Part shown: piece by piece, positions 44,517-55,973 of the stretch
Layout of the letters: each line of letters starts with the position of its first letter
Position numbering within the stretch: the first letter of the stretch is position 1
Assembly (NCBI RefSeq): GCF_024498195.1
Contig: NZ_CP101824.1
Coordinates: forward strand, 1,984,001-2,048,000
Direction of reading: 5' to 3'
DNA length: 64,000 nucleotides
DNA from: Halovivax cerinus
Lineage (GTDB): Archaea; Halobacteriota; Halobacteria; Halobacteriales; Natrialbaceae
The notes under the pieces: generated by a model
What the model was told of the DNA's origin: nothing
Databases searched by the model: none
Seen by the model: the letters and a program-made list of their open reading frames with translations, nothing else
Program-made: the position numbers and the translations under genes

Positions 44517-44917
44517 GTCACCACCACGTTGGGTGACCACTGACAAGGTTCTTTGCAACGACACCGTCCCCGTGAGCACCGACCGTCACGGGCGCTCGTC
44601 CTGTCCGGCTACCGATCCGATCCGTCTTCTCGGACCCGAGTAGAGACGGTCATCGTGGGATCGAACTCCCGGTGGGTCCCCGCCTGCGATACCGGTTTCG
44701 TCTATCGGTAGCAATTTAGGAGCCTGGGCCGCACTCACTCGTACGCGTTTCGCCGTCAGTGATCGACCCCGAACAGTGATCGACCCCGAACAGTGATCGA
44801 CCTCGAACAGTGACCGACCCCGAGCAATGATCGACCCCGAACAGTGACCGACCTCGAACAGTGATCGACCCCGAATCGACGGCGGAATCCCGACCGACCC
44901 ACCCGCGCTGACGACAA
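44517..44917. other. 401-bp divergent gap containing a 17-bp minisatellite
   Basis: Between the PAC2 gene (-) and the PaaK-type ligase gene (+), this stretch holds promoters for both directions and a 17-bp tandem array close to the ligase start. The rest has a weak A/T-rich patch near 44710-44720 (gcaatttagg). Open frames across the array on the minus strand are the repeat read in three frames and are not counted as genes. Confidence 0.6.
44757..44875. repeat. 17-bp tandem repeat, 7 copies
   Basis: Seven units starting at 44757, 44774, 44791, 44808, 44825, 44842 and 44859. The consensus is cagtgatcgaccccgaa, with 0 to 3 substitutions per copy. The array ends 42 bp before the ATG of the PaaK-type ligase, so it lies in the promoter or leader region. 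Confidence 0.92.
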
Positions 44918-54691: not shown

Positions 54692-55063
54692 ATGACCGCG
54701 GCCGAGTCCGGTGAGTCGGATCCGCTCCGCGAGCGCGTCGAGCGCTGGCTCACGGCGCAGATGCCGATCATCCAGATGCACGGCGGGACCAGTGCCGTCA
54801 GGACGGCCGACGCCGAGACAGGCGAGGTGGTGATCGAACTGGGCGGCGGCTGTCGCGGCTGCTCGATCAGTGACGTCACGACGGGAAACATCCAGGCCGA
54901 ACTCCTTACGTGGGACGAGATCGACGACGTCACCGTCAGAGTCCCCGACGCCCGCGAGCAACTCGGCGGCCCCGACCAGGCCGAATCCATCATGGGTATC
55001 GATCGAACCGAAGGCGGTCGTGGTGACTGGGGCTCGTCGAACCCCGGAGCGGATCACCTATAG
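54692..55063 (+). CDS. NifU C-terminal domain protein (Fe-S scaffold-like)
   Basis: A 123-aa protein with the NifU-like domain: [41 protein letters not shown] with the CxxC metal-binding pair. It probably carries Fe-S clusters to target proteins. ATG at 54692. A 38-bp tandem array begins 12 bp after its stop. Confidence 0.9.
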
Positions 55064-55406
55064 CGTGGCCTCTCCTGTCGTTCGTGATTTCTCCTGTAAT
55101 TCGTACTCCTTCTGTCGTTCGTCGTCTCCCCTGTAGCTCTTGATCTCTTCTGTCGTTCGTCGTCTCCCCTGTAGCTCTTGATCTCTTCTGTCGTTCGTCG
55201 TCTCCCCTGTAGCTCTTGATCTCTTCTGTCGTTCGTCGTCTCCCCTGTAGCTCTTGATCTCTTCTGTCGTTCGTCGTCTCCTCTCTGGCCCGTGGTCTCG
55301 CTGCTGACGACGGCCATATTTGAGACAGGCTATACACTTTTACTACGGACACGCCTTCGTTCGAACATGCCACAGCGTGGCGGTGTGCGTAGCACTGGTG
55401 AGACCG
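55064..55406. other. 343-bp intergenic region dominated by the 38-bp array
   Basis: Apart from the array, the last 125 bp contain an A/T-rich patch (tacacttttactac near 55332-55345) that may be the promoter of the ACT-homoserine dehydrogenase operon. Minus-strand open frames through the array are repeat artefacts. Confidence 0.6.
55075..55281. repeat. 38-bp tandem repeat, 4 perfect copies plus flanking partial copies
   Basis: Units of 38 bp begin at 55112, 55150, 55188 and 55226 and look identical. A further 18 bp of the unit follow at 55264-55281, and a degenerate 37-bp copy precedes at 55075. Each unit is itself two related 19-mers (ctgtcgttcgtcgtctccc and ctgtagctcttgatctctt, alike at 11 positions). 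The array is between the NifU-domain gene and the ACT gene. Confidence 0.95.
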
Positions 55407-55973
55407 ATGAGTGACGCGAACGCCGACGAGTCGTCGCAGCCGTCGCCGACGGGCGCCAGTGAGCGGACAGCGTACACGCTCCGCCTCGAACTCGAGGACG
55501 AGCCGGGCAGGTTACACCACGCGCTCGGGCCGATCACCGAACACGGCGGAAACTTGCGATCGATCCACCACGAACGAGGCAACCGAACGCCGCGCGGGAC
55601 GATCCCTGTGGAGATCGTCATGTCGTGTTCACCCGCGCAGTTCGACGCGCTGGTCGAGAGCCTCGAAGCGGCAGACGTGACGGTGATCGAAGCCGGTTCG
55701 CGACGGTTCGAGCGGACGGTCAACGTCGTTCTCGTCGGTCACCTCGTCGACACAGACCTCTCCGATACGCTCTCGCGGATCGAGGCGTTCGAGTACGCCT
55801 CGGTCGTCGACGTTTCGCTCGCGGCCCCGGAGGGAACCGAGGGTGTCTCGAGTACGCGCGTCCAACTCGCCGTCGACGACGGGAACGTCGAGCCGGCAAT
55901 CGACGCGATCAGGTCGGTGGCGGACGAGAAGGACATCGCGGTCGTCGAGCCGCTCCACGAGGGTGATCGGTGA
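55407..55973 (+). CDS. ACT-domain amino-acid-binding protein
   Basis: A 188-aa protein with an ACT-type domain: YTLRLELEDEPGRLHHALGPITEHGGNLRSI is the classic ACT start (D-x-PG-L), and a second beta-alpha segment (VNVVLVGHLVDTDLSDTLSRIEAF) may be a further ACT domain. ACT domains bind amino acids to control enzymes. The stop (TGATG) overlaps the start of homoserine dehydrogenase, so the protein is likely a regulatory partner acting in trans. ATG at 55407; upstream in-frame codons code for no known sequence. Confidence 0.85.
   Translation: MSDANADESSQPSPTGASERTAYTLRLELEDEPGRLHHALGPITEHGGNLRSIHHERGNRTPRGTIPVEIVMSCSPAQFDALVESLEAADVTVIEAGSRRFERTVNVVLVGHLVDTDLSDTLSRIEAFEYASVVDVSLAAPEGTEGVSSTRVQLAVDDGNVEPAIDAIRSVADEKDIAVVEPLHEGDR

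Follow-up and report, generated by a model that had tools for sequence, protein, structure and literature searches.

Introduction

Minisatellites of the bacterial VNTR or MIRU type are built from near-identical units of tens of base pairs, lie between genes and end in decayed copies. Higher-order (nested) units that arise by successive duplication are common among minisatellites without being obligatory. A survey of prokaryotic satellites by Subirana and Messeguer (2019, PMC6749651) found that Methanobrevibacter ruminantium grows many unique satellites genome-wide and that the satellites of Halobacteria are for the most part codon-length repeats inside genes. In the haloarchaeon Haloquadratum walsbyi, short direct repeats of 4–20 bp mediate insertions and deletions (PMC3119063). 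Haloarchaea are described as polyploid organisms that equalise their genome copies by gene conversion, which in Haloferax volcanii is intermolecular (PMC8223754, PMC11276520).

Here we describe a nested array in a spacer of Halovivax cerinus, found in a 64,000-nucleotide stretch of its genome (hereafter the window, to which coordinates refer unless a locus is named). Taken alone the array is ordinary, a new instance of a known satellite type, and it sits in a haloarchaeon with many arrays in its spacers.

Results

Anatomy of the array

The tandem array extends over 228 bp (55071–55298), including decayed copies on both flanks, and Tandem Repeats Finder (TRF) reports it at 55070–55281 with a period of 38, 5.6 copies, 93% match and a score of 347. 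Periodicity at 38 bp is free of mismatches over 173 bp (55109–55281), or 4.55 units: four full units and 21 further bases. The core recovered by TRF consists of four perfect 38-bp units (55109–55260), each composed of half A, CTTCTGTCGTTCGTCGTCT, and half B, CCCCTGTAGCTCTTGATCT, followed by a perfect partial fifth unit with a complete half A and two bases (55261–55281). The left edge is a single decayed dimer copy, TCTCCTGTCGTTCGTGATT TCTCCTGTAATTCGTACTC (55071–55108), which has diverged, carries a 1-bp deletion and is shifted in register by one base relative to the core, and the right edge is a decayed half-unit that matches both A and B at 13/19 positions (55280–55298); no strand is assigned to any of these elements. 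TRF and the exact-period scan thus bear out the four perfect units and partial copies described in an earlier note on this DNA, and by its score and exact period the array is a minisatellite, with head-to-tail copies beyond chance.

The 38-bp unit is itself a dimer of 19-mers, visible to TRF as a nested period of 19 (10.8 copies, 64% matches, score 165). Halves A and B are identical at 12 of 19 positions, one more than the 11 counted previously. Such a match arises by chance with a probability of about 0.002 in sequence of the same composition when the pairing is fixed, and of about 0.0015 in shuffled units with the internal shift free to take its best value, which identifies a nested higher-order unit. 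A CRISPR array was rejected, as the units abut directly, with no unique spacers between repeats.

Perfect repeats are well known for being miscounted, and an assembly artefact could have left the number of units wrong. We consider this very unlikely: the host genome is a single contig of 3.90 Mb with 99.91% completeness, the array spans just 228 bp, its decayed edges are distinct, and the genome contains many similar arrays at other places.

Genomic setting

The array is flanked on its 5' side by a NifU-domain gene (PF01106; 54692–55063, + strand), whose stop codon precedes it by 7 bp, and on its 3' side by the promoter region of an operon for an ACT-domain protein (PF01842; 55407–55973, + strand) and, directly after it, a homoserine dehydrogenase (PF00742, PF03447; 55973–56923, + strand). 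These domain matches agree with the setting first given for the array. Just 3' of the array, a block conserved across the family is intact on the + strand (GACGACGG..ATATTTGAGACAGGCTATACACTTTTACTACGG; 55305–55350); it reads AGTTTTGGGAA.TCCTATAT.CTTTTACG in most of the family, with ATATTTGAGACAGGCTATACACTTTTACTACGG in the window. The block is probably the promoter of the ACT-hom operon, and an array so close upstream of it may have some regulatory effect.

In the window (55305–55415), at loci L003 and L013 and at most Natrialbaceae loci, the conserved promoter-like block is followed by a short ATG open reading frame upstream of the operon, MPQRGGVRSTGETDE in the window and MTTCGRPQAGGDGDG and similar in relatives. 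It is present in 45 of 79 named loci, and its stop shares a constant 8-base overlap with the ACT start, a constancy due in part to the ACT N-terminus (ATGAGTGA/ATGGGTGA). A conserved peptide is unsupported, with substitutions spread equally over the three codon positions (474/479/467) and no third-position bias; the region may instead be conserved leader DNA or RNA.

RNA structure and coding potential

Folding of the array was weaker than that of shuffled sequence on both strands (z +1.4 and +2.1) and no Rfam family matched it at E≤1, results on which we rejected a structured RNA element.

As the earlier note had observed, the minus strand has no stop codon across the array in any of its three frames, and two of the resulting open reading frames reach 127 aa (54990–55373) and 87 aa (55054–55317). 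These would be the grounds for taking the array as part of a minus-strand protein-coding gene, a reading to which we give practically no credence. The 38-bp period shifts the frame with every unit, the open reading frames overlap either the NifU gene or the promoter block, and they are absent in relatives. Open frames are also expected from base composition, the minus strand being 76% purine with 5% T: all three frames stay open in 25% of trials with tandems of a shuffled unit, and in all 18 arrays examined in the same genome one frame or more runs through open, while in several all six do. The open minus strand is therefore weak evidence and carries no weight for coding, and we see no sign of a credible coding role or of a dedicated function for the array.

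Uniqueness in the genome and absence from relatives

We searched the genome for the unit, one of the checks that the earlier note lists. Queries of 351 bp and 76 bp recovered this locus only, the remaining matches being 14–25 bp long and at chance level, and a search with the 19-mer at up to 3 mismatches returned just scattered single copies elsewhere, with no second cluster. A dispersed satellite family or MITE-like repeat was rejected on these results.

Among relatives, matches to the locus query were confined to the end of the NifU gene. The orthologous spacer, inspected in the four congeners and in 23 further relatives, contains no such array, with the downstream conserved block kept; congener G003, for example, has an array-free NifU/ACT-hom locus. 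TRF and short-word BLAST found no related array in the four congener spacers, and TRF on 33 named spacers returned only short arrays of unrelated sequence. An exact 33-base pattern taken from the unit had zero matches in 84,980 species genomes, a set from which the records nearest to this genome may be excluded. The sole match outside the family (G052, 75% over 100 bp) is a TTET-type low-complexity linker in an S-layer-like gene and is not homologous. Without the array, the Halovivax cerinus spacer would measure about 115 bp, versus 146–229 bp in three congeners.

Diverged copies in related species, which the earlier note had named as the mark of an old and static array, were thus sought in the four congener spacers and the wider Natrialbaceae and were absent. 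Its claim of recency is supported as regards origin, in that the orthologous spacer of all four congeners lacks the array; as to its choice between recent expansion and ongoing homogenisation, the two look alike with one genome per species.

These comparisons also bear on whether the array is a cluster of operator sites, with the 19-mers bound by a regulator ahead of the ACT-hom promoter. The direct repeats stop about 7–10 bp upstream of the family-conserved promoter-like block, as such a cluster might. However, all congeners lack the array despite having both the conserved block and the operon, the genome holds no second cluster of the unit, the 19-mer is non-palindromic in a region less structured than its shuffles, and periods of 19 and 38 bp correspond to non-integer helical turns. 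We therefore regard an operator cluster as unlikely.

Intergenic minisatellites across the genome

We counted arrays with a TRF score ≥150, a period ≤100 and ≥2.5 copies, located outside the genes predicted by a simple GC-position caller, in 800 kb of the Halovivax cerinus genome outside the window, 1.2 Mb of congeners G001, G002 and G004, and 0.4 Mb of two other family members. There were 16 intergenic arrays in the Halovivax cerinus sample versus 3 in the congeners (binomial p=1e-4), an excess of roughly 8-fold, and 0 in the other family members. The second 400 kb of the Halovivax cerinus sample, drawn after the first half had suggested an excess, contributed 7 arrays. Counted by 20-kb stretches, 12/40 held an array versus 3/60 in the congeners (Fisher p=8e-4), and the excess per stretch persisted at other thresholds (p from 3e-5 to 0.01). 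Among arrays called coding the count was likewise higher, at 9 in the 800 kb against 3 in the congeners' 1.2 Mb. The sample implies roughly 80 unrelated arrays of this kind in the genome; examples are at L094 (8534–8834), L083 (19358–19607), L166 (876–1208) and L179 (11251–11456).

A second intergenic minisatellite in the window (44757–44875) has seven copies of a 17-bp unit, CAGTGATCGACCCCGAA, at 88% match, and a + strand gene follows 42 bp downstream. The 18 arrays that we examined comprise the 16 sampled and the two in the window. A significant internal sub-period was found in 9 of the 18, the NifU/ACT-hom array included, with period pairs of 38/19 (twice), 54/27 (twice), 54/18, 42/21, 46/23, 74/25 and a weak 18/8. 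A common seed motif among the units was rejected, their top 5- and 6-mers being no more frequent than the top ones of flanking DNA. For five other arrays, the sampled DNA contained the congener spacer between the same flanking genes, and in each case it lacked a comparable array: three spacers have no tandem repeat or a trivial 9-bp one, one of the other two has, in one congener, a run of di- or tetranucleotides, and the last has a weak 24-bp array (score 63).

The diversity of these other arrays, whose pyrimidine content ranges from 0.33 to 0.83 and whose flanking genes stand in every orientation, also argues against reading the NifU/ACT-hom array as a pyrimidine-rich 3' stretch at which NifU transcription stops and which duplication has multiplied. 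Its + strand is 76% pyrimidine and it begins 7 bp past the stop codon, as that explanation would have it. However, it contains no oligo-T run, is missing in relatives, and yielded no terminator-like site to a scan of bacterial type. We judge a terminator quite unlikely.

Twelve of the 16 arrays called intergenic have a period divisible by three, a class to which the 38-bp array does not belong. Either some of the 3n-period arrays lie in short, unrecognised or decayed genes, or GC-rich haloarchaeal DNA, with its three-base texture, is prone to slips of such lengths. This surplus counts against pure neutrality, in that a neutral process in spacers does not predict it.

Tandem repeats of 117–118 bp occur in two Halovivax species, at L081 (15246–15622) in Halovivax cerinus and at L103 (11879–12147) in G002. 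Their unit starts like a tRNA 3' end (GGTTCAATTCCCGGTCGGCGCA), and they may stem from serial integration or from duplication of tRNA tails.

Repair genes

Loss of a repair gene was considered as a cause of the excess and rejected for MutS and the XPG/FEN1 nuclease, both of which are present in 5/5 Halovivax genomes. NucS/EndoMS (PF01939) had no match in Halovivax cerinus, G002 and G003 (3/5 Halovivax genomes) and is present in G004 and Haloferax volcanii; this pattern does not explain the excess, because G002 also lacks a match yet is not array-rich. The Rad50 hook matched in Halovivax cerinus only, but marginally (26.5 versus a cut-off of 24.3), and since the model misses Haloferax volcanii the result is uninformative.

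Discussion

The array is probably an intergenic minisatellite that is lineage-specific and neutral or nearly so, one outcome of a generic process acting across the genome. This conclusion draws on the array's structure, its uniqueness, its absence in relatives, the excess of arrays and the recurrence of nesting, all of which we observed directly. Given the excess of unrelated arrays, a cause general to the genome is more likely than a role at the NifU/ACT-hom junction.

From the anatomy we infer a series of events in which a 19-bp stretch of the spacer would have been duplicated, the two copies would have drifted to 12/19 identity, and the resulting 38-bp dimer would have been amplified by replication slippage or by unequal exchange between genome copies, with the core homogenised and the edges left to decay. 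By analogy with other polyploid haloarchaea, gene conversion between chromosome copies could then fix a new array length. The earlier note had proposed the same two steps, a 19-bp duplication and then 38-bp amplification; they fit the anatomy, and about half of the sampled unrelated arrays show the same nesting, while the order of events is our reconstruction, as are neutrality and the slippage or exchange.

A broader reading is possible, though we hold it doubtful: that this species has been through a surge of tandem duplications across its whole genome, working in trans on spacers unrelated to one another (and, it seems, on genes as well) and giving rise to nested minisatellites, which would make it a natural archaeal repeat-mutator lineage. 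If the species-level excess is confirmed, a several-fold gap in minisatellite number between closely related haloarchaea would allow tests of which difference in replication, repair or recombination is responsible, and the arrays would also be ready markers for strain typing. Prokaryotic satellite growth was described by the 2019 survey, which could not explain it (PMC6749651).

The Halovivax cerinus array resembles bacterial VNTR/MIRU-type minisatellites in its intergenic position, its near-identical units of tens of base pairs and its decayed ends, and is known here from one genome. However, MIRU-type repeats form a dispersed family with a common unit, whereas this unit occurs at one locus. 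Haloquadratum walsbyi offers a parallel in a haloarchaeon, with short direct repeats and change in length, although its changes are deletions between strains (PMC3119063) and the Halovivax array is a net gain. Gene conversion of the kind described for Haloferax volcanii might carry a new array length over to every copy of the chromosome (PMC8223754, PMC11276520), but as described there it equalises alleles, not units within one array. Unlike the Halobacteria of the satellite survey, Halovivax cerinus has many arrays in its spacers, half of them nested. The likeness in kind, under detection criteria that differ from TRF and so give rates not comparable with the present counts, is to Methanobrevibacter ruminantium: in that species too, numerous non-coding arrays were found, each unrelated to the others and confined to a single locus, and they were put down to a tendency of the species to grow satellites (PMC6749651).
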